Shown here in pieces: positions 43,430 to 61,069 of a DNA stretch of 61,069 nt. Position 1 is the first letter of the stretch. Every line of letters starts with the position of its first letter. The notes under the pieces are model-generated. The model was not told where the DNA came from. It saw only the letters and a list, made by a program, of their open reading frames with translations, and did no database searches. The stretch covers positions 1 to 61,069 of the forward strand of contig JAJDUL010000003.1 of NCBI GenBank assembly GCA_022826685.1. Direction: 5' to 3'. A program made the position numbers and the translations under genes. Origin of the DNA: Gemmatimonadota bacterium (GTDB lineage: Bacteria; Gemmatimonadota; Gemmatimonadetes; Palauibacterales; Palauibacteraceae).

Positions 43430-43696
43430 CTACGCTCGGTCTCGCCGGTTGGATTCCGCAATCCAGTCTCGCAGGGCTTCATCGATCCGCGTCTGCCAAC
43501 CGCGGCCACCGGCCCGAAAATGATCGATCACCTCCGGGGACAGCCGGATGGTGGTGGACACCTTCGGTCGGGCCTTCGGCGGACGGCCTCGGCGGACGGG
43601 CACCTTGGCGAACTTCTCCGGCCAGCCGTCCCTGGAGAGATCGGGCGCCGTGTCGGGATCAAAACCATTGGCTGTAGATCCGTCGCTCTCGTTCAT
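43430..43696 (-). CDS. brnA: BrnA antitoxin
   Basis: An 88-residue antitoxin with the BrnA RHH-type DNA-binding pattern: a basic stretch (R-R-G-R-P-P-K-A-R-P-K) and V-S-T-T-I-R-L-S-P-E-V-I-D-H-F-R-A near 45, then G-R-G-W-Q-T-R-I-D-E-A-L-R-D-W-I. BrnA binds BrnT and represses the operon promoter. Its start lies inside the brnT reading frame (38-nt overlap), the usual BrnTA order of toxin first. A shorter relic of a second BrnA is at 56668-56799. Confidence 0.85.
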   Translation of the reverse strand: MNESDGSTANGFDPDTAPDLSRDGWPEKFAKVPVRRGRPPKARPKVSTTIRLSPEVIDHFRAGGRGWQTRIDEALRDWIAESNRRDRA

Positions 43697-43928
43697 TGGC
43701 TTTCCTTATGCTGATGACCCTGCATGCGTTGTCACGAGGCGTCCAAACGAGTACCACCATCGCGTCGTCAAGAAAGCCGATGGTGATGAAGCGAGCCTCG
43801 CCGTAGTCTTGACGATCATCCTCGATGGTCAGCGTCACGCCAGCGAACACCTCCGCCGCCCGCGCCATATCCAAGCCTCGAGCCATGATCGTCAGCGCGC
43901 ATTTTTTTTGGTCGAACTCGATCCGCAT
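43659..43928 (-). CDS. brnT: BrnT toxin
   Basis: An 89-residue ribonuclease toxin of the BrnT family. It keeps the core pattern E-V-F-A-G-V, D-D-R-x-D-Y-G-E-A-R near 38-46, I-G-F-L-D-D, V-V-L-V-W-T-P-R and R-V-I-S-I-R-K-A-N-E-R-E-R-R-I-Y near 69-85. The N-terminal D-x-x-K-x-x-x-N-x-x-K-H-G block of the family is altered here (D-Q-K-K-C-A-L-T-I-M-A-R-G), so the usual Asn and His are absent. Whether activity is kept is unclear. brnA follows and overlaps by 38 nt. Confidence 0.83.
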   Translation of the reverse strand: MRIEFDQKKCALTIMARGLDMARAAEVFAGVTLTIEDDRQDYGEARFITIGFLDDAMVVLVWTPRDNACRVISIRKANERERRIYSQWF

Positions 43929-52401: not shown

Positions 52402-53397
52402 GTGGCAGCACCTCCACGCTTCCAGAGAATGTTGGACAAAGCCGACGCCGCCCTCATCTCGGCGATCGAAATCTACAACAAGCCCGATTTTGCGTATCGC
52501 GAAGAGACGTTCGCGATCCTAGCAATCAACGCTTGGGAACTGTTGCTCAAGGGACGCATTCTTCGCGACAGCGGTAATGATCTTCGCTCGCTCTACGTAT
52601 ATGAGCGAAGGAGAGTAAAGAGTGGAGATTGGGGTAAGAGGAGGTATATTAAACGAAATCGCACCGGCAATGCACATACCAAACACTTGTTCCAACTGTT
52701 GAACGAATTGAGTCAAGACGGACCAACAGAATTGCCGCCTGCGATACCCCACAATCTTCGAGCATTGACAGAAATCAGGGACAACGCAGTCCATTTCGTC
52801 AACGCGAGCCCAACTCTCGCGAAGCAAGTCCTGGAGATTGGTACTGCCTGCGTGCAGAACTACGTCGAACTCGCGCGACGTTGGTTCAATCGAGATTTCT
52901 CGCGTTACAAGCTCTATCTCATGCCGATCGGTTTTGTAGATGCCCCTGGCACTGCGGCCGGATTAATCGTCTCGGCAGGAGAGGAGAATCTAATTGGCTA
53001 TCTGGGACAGCTCATGGCAAAGCCCACAGAGAGCGGTAGCGGTGACTATCGAGTGGCGCTCACAGTAAACATTTCTCTCAAGAAAGTGACTGGGGCGGCG
53101 GTGTCGAGCCAGCATACCACCACCAGCAGTGGGAGCATACCGGCAGTCGAGTTGGTCGAAGAAGATATTCGTAGAATATATCCATGGGACTATGCGACGT
53201 TAACGTCACGGCTCCGCGAACGATACGTCGACTTTGTAGCGAATCAGAGATATCATGACTTGCGAAAGCCTCTGAAGGATGACGATCGATATGTACGGAC
53301 GCGACACCTCGATCCGGAAAACCCGAAGGGAATAAGGAAAGACTTTTACAATCCAAACATCGTGCGCGAGTTCGATGAGCACTATACGCTGGAGTGA
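52402..53397 (+). CDS. DUF3644 (HEPN-superfamily) protein
   Basis: A 331-residue DUF3644 protein. The N-terminus has F-A-Y-R-E-E-T-F-A-I-L-A-I-N-A-W-E-L-L-L near 30-50, typical of the family. R126-x4-H131 in R-D-N-A-V-H-F is the HEPN RNase motif. The C-terminal third (about 245-331) looks like a winged-helix or accessory domain with R-R-I-Y-P-W-D-Y. The GTG start has AGGAGG. Base composition is lower in GC than the neighbours, suggesting transfer. DUF3644 proteins are often found in defence or toxin contexts; a free-standing RNase toxin is an inference. Confidence 0.82.
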   Translation: MAAPPRFQRMLDKADAALISAIEIYNKPDFAYREETFAILAINAWELLLKGRILRDSGNDLRSLYVYERRRVKSGDWGKRRYIKRNRTGNAHTKHLFQLLNELSQDGPTELPPAIPHNLRALTEIRDNAVHFVNASPTLAKQVLEIGTACVQNYVELARRWFNRDFSRYKLYLMPIGFVDAPGTAAGLIVSAGEENLIGYLGQLMAKPTESGSGDYRVALTVNISLKKVTGAAVSSQHTTTSSGSIPAVELVEEDIRRIYPWDYATLTSRLRERYVDFVANQRYHDLRKPLKDDDRYVRTRHLDPENPKGIRKDFYNPNIVREFDEHYTLE

Positions 53398-56081: not shown

Positions 56082-56128
56082 GTGCGTGCCTCCCGACCTC
56101 CCGGTGATTCCTCCGATCGCCGCGCGGG

Positions 56129-56157
56129 ATCATATGGCCCCCTCGGCGGCGCACCAA
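56129..56157 (-). promoter_or_regulatory. Promoter of the membrane protein/phoD unit
   Basis: On the minus strand TTGGTG (56152-56157), 17 bp, TATGAT (56129-56134). The same -35, spacer length and -10 recur at 57836-57864, with most intervening bases identical. This supports a real promoter. Confidence 0.55.
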
Positions 56158-56244
56158 CCATCGCGCGGCACGGTGGCGGGGACGAGCAGGGCGGCCGTAT
56201 CCTCTGCGACTCCCGACAGACCCCGACCGAGACGAGGAGGGACG

Positions 56245-56595
56245 ATGATGCGAAGGAGTCTGGCTGTCGTTGCGGCAATGTTGCTGCTGAGCGGGTGTTA
56301 CCATGCCACGGTCCGAACGGGAATCAACGCCGGACCGGAACGCATACATCGATCGATGGCTTCCGGGTGGCTGTGCGGCCTCGTGCCTCCGTCCACCGTG
56401 CAGGCGGAAGAGGATTGCGGAAACCGGGGCGTGGCCGTGGTGGAAACGCAGTTGTCGTTCCTGAACCAACTCGTCTCCAGCCTCACCTTGGGCATCTACA
56501 CGCCCATGGCGATCACCGTGACCTGCGGCGAGGGCCCGCGGGACGACGAGGAATCCCCGCCGGAAGACGAGAAGTCCCCGCCGCGACATCCCTGA
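56245..56595 (+). CDS. Bor-like lipoprotein
   Basis: A 116-residue lipoprotein with lipobox L-L-S-G-C (Cys 18). The mature part ends with L-V-S-S-L-T-L-G-I-Y-T-P-M-A-I-T-V-T-C-G, the hallmark of the phage lambda Bor family (there ITLGIYTPLEARVYC). An earlier Cys near 57 could pair with the last one. Lambda Bor aids serum survival of lysogens. Here the gene is chromosomal, without other phage genes, so the role is unknown. ATG 56245 has a strong GAGGAGGG site; ATG 56248 is next. An acidic, Pro-rich tail follows. Confidence 0.8.
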   Translation: MMRRSLAVVAAMLLLSGCYHATVRTGINAGPERIHRSMASGWLCGLVPPSTVQAEEDCGNRGVAVVETQLSFLNQLVSSLTLGIYTPMAITVTCGEGPRDDEESPPEDEKSPPRHP

Positions 56596-56667: not shown

Positions 56668-56799
56668 TCACACGTCGTGCTGCTTGATCCAGTCGCACAG
56701 AACTTCGTCGATCCGGGTTTGCCAGCCGCAGCCTCCGGCCCGGAAGTCTACTCTTCCTCTCAAGCCAATCTCAACCTCGCGGAGGGCGACCTTGGCGGG
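56668..56799 (-). pseudogene. BrnA antitoxin relic
   Basis: The last ~35 codons on the minus strand spell V-E-I-G-L-R-G-R-V-D-F-R-A-G-G-C-G-W-Q, then T-R-I-D-E-V-L-C-D-W-I-K. Compare I-D-H-F-R-A-G-G-R-G-W-Q, then T-R-I-D-E-A-L-R-D-W-I in the intact BrnA at 43430-43696. No start or N-terminal half is present before the DUF429 stop, and no BrnT partner is nearby. This is a truncated second copy. Confidence 0.65.
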
Positions 56800-57534
56800 T
56801 CAGGGGAGTTGCGCGAGGCTTCCTGTCTGCGGTAGGGCGATCCAGCCTTCCTCCCGGGCCAGCGCGAGGTCGTCCGGTGGGATCGGGTCGCAGCGGTCGA
56901 TGGCGGCGGCGCGGGAGACCAGGGCCGCCACGAGCGCGTCGAGGATGTCGTCCGACGCCGTGCACCTCTCCCAATCCTCCTCGGAGAGGGTGAGCCAGTC
57001 CGCGGTCTGCTTCGCGAGGTCACGCACGAGTCGGGCGCGAACCTTCACACCCTTCGCGCCCTTGTAGCCGCGCGAGGGGAAGCCCCATACGTGGAGGGCG
57101 GCTGCGGGGTAGACTTCGACGAAGCGGCCGCCGCCGCTCCGGTCGATGGATTCACCGTTGGCCGCCGCCTCCGCAAGCAGGCGGACGGCTCGCATGCCGG
57201 GCACCGCGATCAGATCCGATGAGACGCTGAGCGGCCACCGTCCCAGCCTCTCCTTCACCACCTCATCGGTTCGCCGAAACCGAAGCTGGGGAAGGTCGGT
57301 GGCGGGCCAGATCGTCTCCGCGGAGTAGGCGGTGATGGCTCGCGCAAAGGGCGCGGGCCAGCCGAAGGGTGCATCGATGCCGATCTTGTCCGCGCGCCCG
57401 AACAGTCCATGCAGATCGGCATCCGTCGCCCCCATCGAGAGCGTCTCGATCCGCGCAGATCCGCGATCCCAGCCAATCAGGCAGGTCGCCGTGCCCTTCG
57501 GCCGTGAGGCGAGATCGACTCCGAGTGTGACCAT
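56800..57534 (-). CDS. DUF429 protein (predicted RNase H-like nuclease)
   Basis: A 244-residue DUF429 protein. It begins M-V-T-L-G-V-D-L-A-S, the first acidic strand of an RNase H-like fold. I-G-I-D-A-P-F-G-W-P near 55 is the family's second signature. R-R-T-D-E-V near 85 and the C-terminal D-D-I-L-D-A-L-V-A-A-L near 207 complete the set of acidic residues. ATG 57534 overlaps the stop of a small upstream ORF (TGATG), which suggests coupling. Substrate and role are undetermined; the nuclease prediction is by fold. Confidence 0.8.
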   Translation of the reverse strand: MVTLGVDLASRPKGTATCLIGWDRGSARIETLSMGATDADLHGLFGRADKIGIDAPFGWPAPFARAITAYSAETIWPATDLPQLRFRRTDEVVKERLGRWPLSVSSDLIAVPGMRAVRLLAEAAANGESIDRSGGGRFVEVYPAAALHVWGFPSRGYKGAKGVKVRARLVRDLAKQTADWLTLSEEDWERCTASDDILDALVAALVSRAAAIDRCDPIPPDDLALAREEGWIALPQTGSLAQLP

Positions 57535-57779: not shown

Positions 57780-57835
57780 AGTGAACCTCTCAGCGACGGG
57801 GCCGAGTTGCGCGCTATGTGCGTGCCTCTCACCGG

Positions 57836-57864
57836 ATCATATCGTCCCCTCGGCGGCGCACCAA
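57836..57864 (-). promoter_or_regulatory. Promoter of the small ORF/DUF429 unit
   Basis: On the minus strand TTGGTG (57859-57864), 17 bp, TATGAT (57836-57841). It nearly repeats the promoter at 56129-56157, including CGCCGCCGAGGGG in the spacer and a downstream GAGGCACGCACAT. In this copy the sequence after CACAT reads AG, so the leader's original start codon is lost. Confidence 0.55.
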
Positions 57865-58014
57865 CGATGGCGGCCCGGCCCGGTGATCTCTCGCTCCCAT
57901 CCCCCGTGTGCGGGGGGCCGGGACGGTCTCGCCCGACCCGATGGAGCGCCAAGCAACCGTGCGCCGTAAGGTTGTCTGTCTCACCGGTCCCGATCTGGAA
58001 AACGGAGGCGCGCG

Positions 58015-58257
58015 ATGAATGATTCAGGGGATGTCCCCGACGCACGGGATGCATGGCGCTTGCTCATCAAGTGGGGCTTGTTCTGGAGCCTGATGCTCAA
58101 CATCCCCGTTGCGATTTTTGGGATCGTCGCGACGGACGATCGGGGTTTCTGGGTGGCTCATCTTGTGGTTGTGATACCGATTTTCACCGTCCTTGTGCTC
58201 CAGATCCCGGCGCGAAGAGCGACAGATTTCATCGGGGCAGACGACGAGGAGGTCTGA
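58015..58257 (+). CDS. Small two-helix membrane protein, nuclease operon gene 1
   Basis: An 80-residue protein with two predicted membrane helices (about 17-38 and 47-64) joined by a short T-D-D-R-G-F-W loop, with acidic ends. GGAGG precedes ATG 58015. Its stop TGA is directly followed by the ATG of the nuclease gene, and GAGGAGG lies in its last codons. It is thus the first gene of a coupled three-gene unit. Small membrane proteins of this size are common in defence operons as effectors or anchors, but no family is recognised. Confidence 0.65.
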   Translation: MNDSGDVPDARDAWRLLIKWGLFWSLMLNIPVAIFGIVATDDRGFWVAHLVVVIPIFTVLVLQIPARRATDFIGADDEEV

Positions 58258-59796
58258 ATGGATGGGGCACGTCGCTCCGAGCGACGCCGAGTTCAGCAGT
58301 TCCTCGTCGAGCTGAATCCCGCGTTGGAGGCGGCCCGGAAGCTGGAGCGAGAGCTCGACCGGCATCTCGCGCATCGCTTCAACGTCTTCAACTACATGGG
58401 CGACGGGCGTCCGAACGAAGTTCTGCTTTCAAGGATCATTGGCGACCTGCTCAACCCCGCCGCGCTGCACGGCCAGGGTGCGTCCCAGCTCGGGATCATG
58501 CTGGATAAGTTGTCGGCTGAAAGCGGCGCACCTAGGCCGAGGCCGGACTTCTCGAAGCCGGTTCGCGTACAGCTGGAGCGCCTCATCCCCGGCGGGCGTC
58601 TCATCGACATCACGGTGGATGTGGCGACCGGCGCCGGGCCGTGGTGTCTGGCCTTCGAGAACAAGCCCTTCGCGGGCGATCAGCCTAACCAGGTGCGGGA
58701 CTATCTCAAGTATCTCGAGGATGAGTACAAGGACCGTTTTCTGCTGATCTACCTGTCCCCGCGCGGCGAAGGGCCTACCGATTATTCCCTGCCGAAGGAA
58801 GAGCTCCCCCGTTGGCGGGGGCGGCTCCTCGTCATGCCCTATTGGCGGGATCCCGAGAGCGCAGGTCGGGAAGGAGAATACGTCGAGGAGAACGAGGGTG
58901 GCCCCAAAGACGAGGGAGAGGCCGGCGCGCCAGAAGCGGAAGGCGGCCGCGAAGCGGACGACGCGCCCGAAGATGAGCCAGCCCTCCCGGATGACGTGTT
59001 CGCCGACTTCCGTACTCGGTTCTCCTTGGCCGACTGGTTCGCCGCCTGCCGCACGCAGTGCCACGCGGACCGGCTCCGGTGGTTTCTCAGGGATGCCGCA
59101 GCATTCTGCCGACAACAATTCGGAGGACATTCGATGGCGACGGACAGCGACACGCGGGCGATACAGGAGTATCTCTTCGCTAACCCGAATCAGCTGGAGA
59201 CCGCGCAGACCGTCTGGGATGCCTGGCCGGGACTCAAGGCGGAGTTGTGCGGAGGGTTCCTGGAGCACCTCCGCGCGGAGATCCACCGAAGAGTACGCGG
59301 GGCATTGCCCGATATCGCTCCGGATCTCCGCGTGGAATGCAGGTACGGCGGCGAAAAGAAGTGGTCGAACTTCCTCTGGTTGAACCGCCCGGGGTGGCCT
59401 GCATGGGACAAGCCCATCACGAATCACCCTCCGGGCGAGGGATGCACGGGCGTTGTCCTGCAGTCCCTTGGGCCCGGGCCGAACCACTGGAGGTGGGGTG
59501 TGCTCCATCCGCTGGACAAGAACAAGGGGACCGACAGGGACAAGGAGCGGCGTAAGGCACTGGAGGACAGGCTTCGGCGCGACCTCGAGCCCTGTGGAAG
59601 CCTCCTCTGGTGGCCCTACGTCTGCCAGGTCCGCGACGACATGACTCGTTGGGACTCCCTCCTTCCGGAATTGTATCGAGAAACGAAGGACGGCGGTGGA
59701 ACCATCACGGACTACTACGTCGAGGGCATGATCGATCTCGCCGCGAAGGCGATTCCCATCATTGAAGAAGTCGAACAAGCGGGGACGCCCTCGTGA
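58258..59796 (+). CDS. PDDEXK_4-type nuclease, operon gene 2
   Basis: A 512-residue protein. The N-terminal part (about 35-165) matches the PD-(D/E)xK superfamily group PDDEXK_4. F-N-V-F-N-Y-M-G with N-E-V-L-L-S-R-I-I-G-D-L-L-N-P is near 41-67; D117 lies in L-I-D-I-T-V; E134-N-K136 lies in F-E-N-K; and N144-Q145 follows. D, E and K would form the metal-dependent nuclease site. A long acidic E/G/A linker (about 200-245) and a C-terminal domain of unknown type (about 245-512, with W-F-A-A-C-R-T-Q-C-H) follow. It is coupled to gene 3 by GTGA. DNA cleavage and defence are inferences. Confidence 0.78.
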   Translation: MDGARRSERRRVQQFLVELNPALEAARKLERELDRHLAHRFNVFNYMGDGRPNEVLLSRIIGDLLNPAALHGQGASQLGIMLDKLSAESGAPRPRPDFSKPVRVQLERLIPGGRLIDITVDVATGAGPWCLAFENKPFAGDQPNQVRDYLKYLEDEYKDRFLLIYLSPRGEGPTDYSLPKEELPRWRGRLLVMPYWRDPESAGREGEYVEENEGGPKDEGEAGAPEAEGGREADDAPEDEPALPDDVFADFRTRFSLADWFAACRTQCHADRLRWFLRDAAAFCRQQFGGHSMATDSDTRAIQEYLFANPNQLETAQTVWDAWPGLKAELCGGFLEHLRAEIHRRVRGALPDIAPDLRVECRYGGEKKWSNFLWLNRPGWPAWDKPITNHPPGEGCTGVVLQSLGPGPNHWRWGVLHPLDKNKGTDRDKERRKALEDRLRRDLEPCGSLLWWPYVCQVRDDMTRWDSLLPELYRETKDGGGTITDYYVEGMIDLAAKAIPIIEEVEQAGTPS

Positions 59797-61069
59797 AGGC
59801 GTCGAGGCCGCTGTTGGCGCAGCTTGCCTGGCGGTTTCATCCGCGCATGGAAGAAGTCGCCGTGGAGGCCTTGGCGCACCTCCTCAACCGATACCCCGCC
59901 TCGAGAGGAGGATTGAGCGAGGTGCTGGAACACAAGGTGCCGCGAATGCGGTTGTCCGACGAACGGTTCCAGACCGAAGTCTCCTTTGCGGATGGTGCGC
60001 GCCCCGATGTGCTGCAGAAGGGAGTTGATGGGCAGAGCCGGCTCATGGTTGAAGCCAAGTTCCATGCGTCGCTCACTCCCAATCAGCCGGTTCCCTACCT
60101 CAACTGGCTTCCGGATGATGGGATTTCCGTGCTCGCGTTCCTGGCCCCGTTGGGGCGGGTGGAGGAGCTTTGGCTCCAGCTGCTCCACAGGCTCGACAAG
60201 AAGGGCATCCCGCATTCCGATGCGGGTCCCCGGTGCGCCGCGATCGATCGGACGGGCAAGCATCTCCTCATCACTGACTGGGAGACGGTGCTGAGCGGGA
60301 TGGAATCGCGGCTGAAGGACTCCGAGTCGGGTCTCGCGGAACTCCGACAACTCAGCGGGCTGACGCGGTTTGCCGAGGCGAATGAACCCAAGTCTCGGCA
60401 CGCTGGCGAGAAACTCGTCAAGCAGGTGGCCGCCATCGGCCGAAACGCGGGCTGGATCGACACGGAGGGCTTGGGTGTCGCCTCGTTCTCGTACGGCTAC
60501 GGGCGGTACGTGCTGCTCGGCCGTCGAGCCAGACTCGGCGTATGGGTGGGCTTCAATACAGACCTGCACGAGGAATCTCGCGAGACGGAGTTGTGGGTTC
60601 AGCTGCTAAAGTGGAGAGACCCCGTAGGACAGCGTTGGAACGACCGCGTTATCCCGGCTCTGACGGATCCCGGAGACCAGCCCGTCAAGTTCGAGGGCAC
60701 GGCTGTGTGGGTCGGCGTCGTTCCGGAGCATCGCTCGGATCCGGCCAGCTACGCGGCCGCGTTGGAACGAATCGCCGAGATCGTGGATGAGGCTGCCGAC
60801 TCCCCGCTCTCACCTGCCAGCGTGCTTGCGGAGGTCGGCCGGACATACGACCAGCCCGTGATGAACAACATCCGTCGCTCGGAATACGTCGAGGCCCTCC
60901 TGACTCTCGCGCTCGAGGGGAGCGGCTGGACCCGCAAGGAGCCGTGGGAGGCTTGGCACTTCGAGAACGAGTCGAGCGGGCGACTAAAAGTCAAGCAATC
61001 GGCGGCCACGCAGTCGTGGGGCGGTGACCGCGACCTGGGCGCTTCCGCTCGATTCAGTATCGCGCCGGC
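59793..61069 (+). CDS. Nuclease-like protein, operon gene 3 (3' end outside window)
   Basis: An open frame of 425 codons from GTG 59793 to the window end, with no stop. It starts inside gene 2 (GTGA), so it is coupled. Near the N-terminus D72 ... V86-E87-A-K89 in R-P-D-V and M-V-E-A-K-F-H has the D-(x)n-E-x-K spacing of PD-(D/E)xK enzymes. Near the visible end, L-K-V-K-Q-S-A-A-T-Q-S-W (398-409) resembles the E-x-K-Q-S-A-x-Q-(S/T)-W type of a second nuclease-like region, but the acidic residue is Lys here. I do not recognise a named family. The total length is unknown. Confidence 0.65.
   Translation, partial: MKASRPLLAQLAWRFHPRMEEVAVEALAHLLNRYPASRGGLSEVLEHKVPRMRLSDERFQTEVSFADGARPDVLQKGVDGQSRLMVEAKFHASLTPNQPVPYLNWLPDDGISVLAFLAPLGRVEELWLQLLHRLDKKGIPHSDAGPRCAAIDRTGKHLLITDWETVLSGMESRLKDSESGLAELRQLSGLTRFAEANEPKSRHAGEKLVKQVAAIGRNAGWIDTEGLGVASFSYGYGRYVLLGRRARLGVWVGFNTDLHEESRETELWVQLLKWRDPVGQRWNDRVIPALTDPGDQPVKFEGTAVWVGVVPEHRSDPASYAAALERIAEIVDEAADSPLSPASVLAEVGRTYDQPVMNNIRRSEYVEALLTLALEGSGWTRKEPWEAWHFENESSGRLKVKQSAATQSWGGDRDLGASARFSIAP

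Follow-up and report, generated by a model that had tools for sequence, protein, structure and literature searches.

Three adjoining genes at the end of a 61,069-base contig from a Gemmatimonadota bacterium (assembly GCA_022826685.1, contig JAJDUL010000003.1; G000:C68) probably form a neighborhood made by recombination, not an evolved three-part system, in which the second and third genes are independent restriction-type nucleases. The contig in its entirety is the window analyzed here, and the genome comprises 3.28 Mb in 73 contigs; isolate names point to marine sponges as the probable origin of this bin and of that of its relative G292. Gene 1 encodes a small protein with two predicted transmembrane segments (2-TM protein), gene 2 a nuclease-like protein of the PDDEXK_4 family, and gene 3 a tandem nuclease-like protein that is cut by the contig terminus at 61,069. 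Judged from sequence comparison, the three genes were most likely gathered in a Gemmatimonadota accessory island as two single-gene restriction-type nucleases together with a small membrane-protein gene that may derive from a transposon. Genes 2 and 3 are each most likely a stand-alone DNA-cutting defense protein.

The initial annotation of this DNA had described three open reading frames (ORFs) with TGA-ATG and GTGA junctions, encoding two separate ExK-type proteins and a 2-TM protein, and all of these elements, including the catalytic residues that it named, are present. Gene 1 and gene 2 are joined with zero gap (GAGGAGGTC TGA ATG), and the GTG start of gene 3 overlaps the TGA stop of gene 2 (CTC GTGA). 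The further claim that the three genes act as a single coupled system found no support when the order was followed across genomes. Within the genus, the order gene 1-gene 2-gene 3 is seen in one of 17 genomes, the window's own, and it was not found at any of the 22 other gene 2 loci or the five other full-length gene 3 loci. The homologues occur singly, the outcome that the initial annotation had named as refuting its reading.

The 22 gene 2 loci are the 21 other places in the phylum match list plus L084; seven, among them L138, for which tblastn returned nothing at 0.01, are mostly fragments or weak matches, and L054 and L055 represent one stretch present in two genomes. Gene 1 was found at none of them. 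Pieces of gene 3 lay near gene 2 at only two, at 2.4-2.6 kb: a short gene 3 remnant about 2.4 kb from gene 2 in G046, and an N-domain relative of gene 3 at L084 (G308), encoded on the opposite strand at a distance of 2.6 kb. Neither gene 2 nor an intact gene 1 was found by tblastn (to E 1) at the five other full-length gene 3 loci, two of which (L066 and L065) lie on short contigs of 4.2 and 6.7 kb. Both nuclease families occur in five of the 298 phylum genomes (G000, G046, G053, G086, and G198) and are adjacent in G000 only; in G053, G086, and G198 the matches are on separate contigs, the gene 2 match of G086 being weak.

The start of gene 3 also differs from that of its relatives. AAGGAA or GAGGAA stands directly before the GTG in all five full-length relatives but not in the window copy, where the end of gene 2 occupies the place of this purine-rich ribosome-binding leader. 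The simplest history is one in which gene 2 arrived ahead of gene 3 and the join itself created the overlap. The GTGA overlap would record the landing of gene 2 before gene 3, with displacement of gene 3's own leader. Another genome of the window's genus, G292, has kept the region preceding gene 1 and its first codons and has lost both TM helices by deletion; this gene 1 remnant lies directly before an intact gene 3 with its own leader, and gene 2 is absent. At L067, gene 3 and a DUF429 gene are divergent, the arrangement seen in the window; 131 bp separate them, and genes 1 and 2 are absent.

With respect to gene 2, the match to PDDEXK_4 scored 50.7 bits against a curated cut-off of 22.3. No substitution of D117, E134, or K136 was seen in an alignment of 12 sequences, which included the window copy and left out the more broken relatives. 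The ratio of nonsynonymous to synonymous substitution rates (dN/dS) was 0.25-0.34 against four relatives, indicating purifying selection. Matches to gene 2 occur in 17 of 298 genomes of the phylum, its own counted. The initial annotation had seen no named defense system in the unit, a view that is only partly borne out: in the nuclease half of gene 2, residues 30-179 match the PADLOC candidate family PDC-S26 (7.8e-24), at model positions 24-163 of 413 only. A sequence search of the PDB returned a single weak match (0.062), scans of viral contigs with a single sequence and with an alignment found no relatives, and open-licence PMC papers held no matching literature for PDDEXK_4, PF14281, or PDC-S26. 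We propose that the N-terminal PDDEXK_4 domain would bind metal via D117, E134, and K136 and cut DNA, with target choice provided by the conserved C-terminal half.

Two further arrangements were seen around gene 2 relatives. At L049:374-2742, a full gene 2 relative is followed at once by a separate overlapping gene that duplicates the C-terminal half. A gene of 127-129 amino acids (aa) precedes gene 2 relatives by 15-16 bp at L045:5740-6123 and L047:6016-6399, and the same gene type is found near a gene 3 C-domain gene at L060:9381-9770; the one copy scanned had no Pfam match.

For gene 3, searches of Pfam, PADLOC, and NCBIfam returned no family, and PHROGs gave a single weak, partial match (0.017). 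The PDB sequence search returned nothing, the plasmid search with the whole window gene gave no match, and the viral contig scan found no relative. Within the window's genome, a search with a full-length relative returned the window copy as the sole match. Relatives were found in nine of the 298 phylum genomes (own included) and in 11 of the 121 genomes in the family of G279. Genome contigs yielded five loci, three of which correspond to G292, G279, and G309, already met or refound. The complete form measures 519-529 aa in five complete relatives.

The PD-(D/E)xK motif is described by D-ExK plus a helix E and QxxxY. In the N domain of gene 3, E20, D72, E87-A-K89, Q98, and Y102 are invariant in all six chosen sequences, the most remote of which, a Rhizobium plasmid protein, is 24% identical. 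A profile alignment of gene 3 with gene 2 pairs the same catalytic residues, yet its probability is only 3.6%. In addition to what the initial annotation had described, gene 3 contains a second nuclease-like domain. At the E of its ExK motif, 11 of 12 rows with letters carry the family residue, and at the D, 11 of 13 rows do. This second motif is not intact in the window, which has K399 for E and H389 for D; the D is also missing from the damaged gene L092, whose row is gapped at the E position. The dN/dS of gene 3 was 0.43-0.47 against five relatives. Its C region is 53-58% and its N region 51-55% identical to relatives. A structure model of the relative L063, built with six sequences, reached a predicted local distance difference test (pLDDT) score of 57 overall; the N domain was mostly at 70-91, falling to about 50 at residues 61-80, which carry the motif D.

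Both domains are also found apart. The N domain stands alone at L058 and L084, and the C domain at L059, L061, L090, and on plasmids; since each occurs alone, gene 3 appears to have joined two nuclease-like domains that exist separately. At L060:6399-7564, a helix-turn-helix is fused to the gene 3 C domain and overlapped by a RelE-type toxin gene. Cutting by gene 3 would be carried out by the N-terminal D-ExK/QxxxY domain. The C domain, catalytic by its motif in relatives, may at most bind DNA in the window, where D and E are missing.

Several overlapping genes accompany gene 3 relatives. The N-domain-only relative at L058:6842-8996 overlaps a gene with a NucS_C domain, and a relative of that NucS_C gene overlaps a DUF429 gene adjoining gene 2 at L043:7494-9204. 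Behind gene 3 in G292 lies an overlapping 82-aa ORF without a Pfam match (L056:8629-8877), at a point that the window contig stops short of.

Gene 1 has two hydrophobic segments, with 19-residue windows peaking at residues 21-39 and 44-62. Pfam, PADLOC, and NCBIfam returned no family for it, and PHROGs gave one weak match (0.006). A family of similar proteins, referred to here as g1-like, was grown from profiles of gene 1 and a weak relative in G072, which added members in G056 and G224. The three-protein g1-like profile scored 25.3 bits on the window gene 1, compared with 9.7 bits for the best of 1985 scored shuffles and only 4.1 bits for the best unrelated small gene; the window protein is just 23-30% identical to its relatives. 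No match to a g1-like protein was found on plasmids and no relative of gene 1 in viral contigs, and open-licence PMC literature held nothing matching small membrane proteins of this sort.

Of the five other g1-like members examined, three are within or next to IS1595-type transposons, and in two of these cases restriction-modification cargo is present. In G056, the gene belongs to a complete element (L112) that has 23-nt terminal repeats and an 8-bp target duplication and also encodes a transposase of IS1595 type, an EcoRI-type methylase, and a GmrSD-HNH protein; the g1-like gene lies close to the end, with only a 66-aa ORF beyond it. In G072, it lies inside a 5.3-kb IS1595-type element (L091), flanked by a methylase-HNH fusion and by an AbiU2-like gene whose score is just above the Pfam cut-off. 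The GTG of the g1-like gene in G224 (L113) and the stop codon of an IS1595 transposase remnant overlap. The remaining two are a 108-aa stretch in G298 (L132:7361-7687) and a second place in G056, within a 254-aa frame (L133:6548-7312), which scored 33.5 and 27.1 bits, respectively. No IS1595 transposase was found near either by tblastn, and their called neighbors, judged without a scan of family libraries, do not resemble restriction genes. We accordingly rejected the idea that all g1-like genes travel on IS1595 elements, since two of the five do not. The count of five excludes other weak profile matches, which may be hydrophobic chance matches; these are mostly frames of 240-755 codons with E values of 1e-5 to 1e-2, chiefly from genus g24, together with one 114-codon frame with stops. 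The surroundings of L132 and L133 are similar in the two genomes, and the L133 frame opens with another protein's sequence.

The window cluster itself was also considered as an IS1595 element and rejected, as no transposase was found in the window by tblastn and no terminal repeat was detected, the best candidate having 8 mismatches of 23 and the right side running off the contig. In the window's own genome, the IS1595 element has no g1-like gene. Across the genus, seven of the 17 genomes contain 10 IS1595 transposase loci, eight of them without a g1-like gene in the stretch read. Transposon arrival of gene 1 is possible, and its role may be membrane anchoring or that of a silent passenger.

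Four complete IS1595-type elements in the genus combine compact restriction-modification cargo with terminal repeats and exact 8-bp target duplications (Table 1). Their cargo consists of one methylase-Mrr fusion, two methylase-HNH fusions, and one EcoRI-type methylase plus GmrSD-HNH protein. Two further complete IS1595 elements (L124 and L131) have no methylase among their called genes.

The neighbors of gene 2 vary between loci. PADLOC matched eight of 10 chosen neighbors, the other two staying unmatched at the 1e-15 limit; the matches were GajA, GajB, a type IV restriction endonuclease, TmtA, RmrA, Orf5/HEC-06, a type IIG restriction-modification (RM) protein, and PDC-S02/PDC-M26A. Among 104 neighbors (at least 80 aa, within 5 kb, 14 loci), 210 PADLOC models matched at 1e-5, and none of the 25 among the matches listed was found in more than two proteins. 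Near gene 3 relatives, L089 holds type IIG RM, GmrSD-like, HmaA/DrmD-like, and McrBC proteins, and L067 a type II methylase.

As the initial annotation had noted, the genes next to the cluster are of accessory type: a divergent DUF429 gene, a brnA relic, and a Bor-like lipoprotein gene (Table 1). In 25 genomes picked for holding gene 2 or gene 3 relatives, DUF429 was found in nine, in 10 copies. Among these copies, six are separated from a gene 2 or gene 3 relative by 144-1515 bp; the G046 copy, one of the six, is a remnant. The copies of the window, L067, and L043 are 83-85% identical and may go back to one inheritance. The copy of G306 is 25% identical to the window's and that of G086 did not cluster with it, a divergence that hints at separate events. 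In PMC3985635, DUF429 is assigned to the RNase H-like superfamily and deemed unlikely to be mobile since its context is conserved; here, it lies in variable accessory DNA.

Farther from the cluster, a DUF3644 protein (PF12358, 6.8e-47) is encoded at window positions 52402-53397 and is possibly a further defense-island gene. An intergenic repeat of about 50 nt has copies at 56127-56175 and 57834-57885 that are 85% identical.

Table 1. Features of the gene cluster and its surroundings in the window, and related loci in other genomes
Feature	Position	Strand	Basis
Gene 1: 2-TM protein, 80 aa	58015..58257	+	ORF, hydrophobicity, profile score
Gene 2: PDDEXK_4 family nuclease-like protein, 512 aa	58258..59796	+	Pfam, PADLOC, alignment, dN/dS
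Gene 2 PDDEXK_4 domain, residues 41-186 (D117, E134, K136)	58378..58815	+	Pfam PF14281, E=2.7e-13
Gene 3: tandem nuclease-like protein, first 425 residues, truncated by contig end (frame open to 61067)	59793..61067	+	
Gene 3 N-terminal D-ExK domain, about residues 1-205 (E20, D72, E87, K89, Q98, Y102)	59793..60407	+	Invariant in 6/6
Gene 3 C-terminal ExK-type domain, beginning, residues 336-425	60798..61067	+	
Gene 3 H389 in place of family D	60957-60959	+	
Gene 3 K399 in place of family E	60987-60989	+	
DUF429 gene (predicted RNase H-like), divergent neighbor	56800..57534	-	PF04250, 2e-30
brnA relic	56687..56745	-	81% identity over 59 nt to intact brnTA at 43430-43928
Bor-like lipoprotein	56245..56595	+	PF06291, 2.6e-18
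DUF429 near gene 2 or gene 3 relatives	Window 56800-57534; L067, L043, L058, L087, L042		
Cargo-bearing IS1595-type elements (four)	L128:4622-7495; L129:5015-8013; L091:6912-12211; L112:6376-10071		

A genuine new defense system of three genes, in which the 2-TM protein would sense infection or anchor a complex and the two nucleases would cut in turn, appears quite unlikely to us. The close junctions, the purifying selection on genes 2 and 3, and an accessory region with brnTA, DUF429, and DUF3644 would all suit such a system; the order, however, is confined to a single genus genome and recurs at none of the other gene 2 or full-length gene 3 loci, and gene 3 lacks its usual leader and has an altered second active site. 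The replacement of the family D and E by H389 and K399 would also fit a decaying island, in which gene 3, and perhaps all three genes, are becoming pseudogenes and are now inactive. Broken or partial relatives of genes 2 and 3 in G046, L051-L053, and L085-L087 and the adjoining brnA relic point the same way, but the three frames are open, the low dN/dS of gene 2 speaks for constraint, and the C region of gene 3 is no worse conserved than its N region, and we regard decay as unlikely. The fact that the contig breaks within gene 3, and that the gene 2/3 junction was seen nowhere else, raises the question of an assembly artefact near a metagenome contig end that joined gene 2 to an unrelated gene 3. 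This we hold to be very improbable: the contig continues for 1.3 kb past the join, gene 1 and gene 3 are also close in G292, and gene 2 lies near a gene 3 remnant in G046.

Gene 1 and a nuclease could instead represent a recurring module, consisting of a transposon-borne 2-TM partner and exchangeable restriction nucleases, currently gene 2. This is suggested by the g1-like genes with restriction cargo inside the IS1595-type elements L112 and L091, the overlap with a transposase remnant end at L113, and the gene 1 remnant ahead of gene 3 in G292. It is an unlikely explanation all the same, given the low identity of the window gene 1 to its relatives, the lack of a detected IS1595 transposase or terminal repeat in the window, and the eight of 10 genus transposase loci without a g1-like gene; our confidence was lowered further, from an already low level, by the L132 and L133 proteins, which have neither the transposase nor restriction-looking called neighbors. 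The bolder claim that gene 1 marks a transposon-spread, membrane-linked restriction module, with a 2-TM partner carried by IS1595-type elements between exchangeable nucleases, is a long shot, and one to which we gave slightly less credence once two g1-like genes appeared outside such elements. If true, the exchangeable partners would be a methylase plus GmrSD-HNH, a methylase-HNH plus AbiU2, PDDEXK_4, and the tandem nuclease, and the module would put DNA cutting at the membrane, the entry site of phage DNA.

Several observations weigh against a neighborhood assembled by recombination from independent nucleases. The tight coupling, with frames intact up to the contig end, makes a young functional operon possible, and gene 1 and gene 3 are close together in two genus genomes (the window's and G292), so that this pair is not unique. 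Contig ends restrict some neighborhoods, and gene calls beyond the window come from a simple purpose-made ORF picker. The suggestion of defense-gene enrichment around gene 2 concerns chosen neighbors, with no random-gene control. The single-sequence structure model of gene 2 had a pLDDT of 38 and was unusable, and Foldseek on the L063 model of gene 3 returned no PDB matches at E <= 0.001.

With a false new system struck off, three leads are left. One is the tandem nuclease family, unmatched in Pfam, PADLOC, and NCBIfam and with a weak PHROGs match at most, and another is the 2-TM protein, which in part travels with restriction genes on transposons; these two parts of the cluster deserve follow-up. 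The third is the recurrent DUF429 neighborhood, which could give an uncharacterized RNase H-like family a testable role in defense.

The cluster can be compared with known systems gene by gene. Insertion sequences with passenger genes have been described (PMC3129680), and the g1-like genes resemble passengers of IS1595-family transposons in being cargo of two such elements; the window gene 1 differs in having no detected transposase or terminal repeat around it. The likeness of gene 2 to PDC-S26 is confined to the nuclease half, its C-terminal half lying outside the matched part of the model. On an Azotobacter plasmid, a more distant gene 2 relative has a Fic gene on one side and, on the other, the R subunit gene of a type I restriction operon. 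The N domain of gene 3 is matched by a 333-codon hypothetical gene of Rhizobium leguminosarum, and the C domain by hypothetical genes of 189-217 codons in Rhodococcus, Streptomyces, Bacillus, and Pseudoalteromonas. In these plasmid families the domains are unfused, whereas in the window and at five other loci they are fused into one protein.

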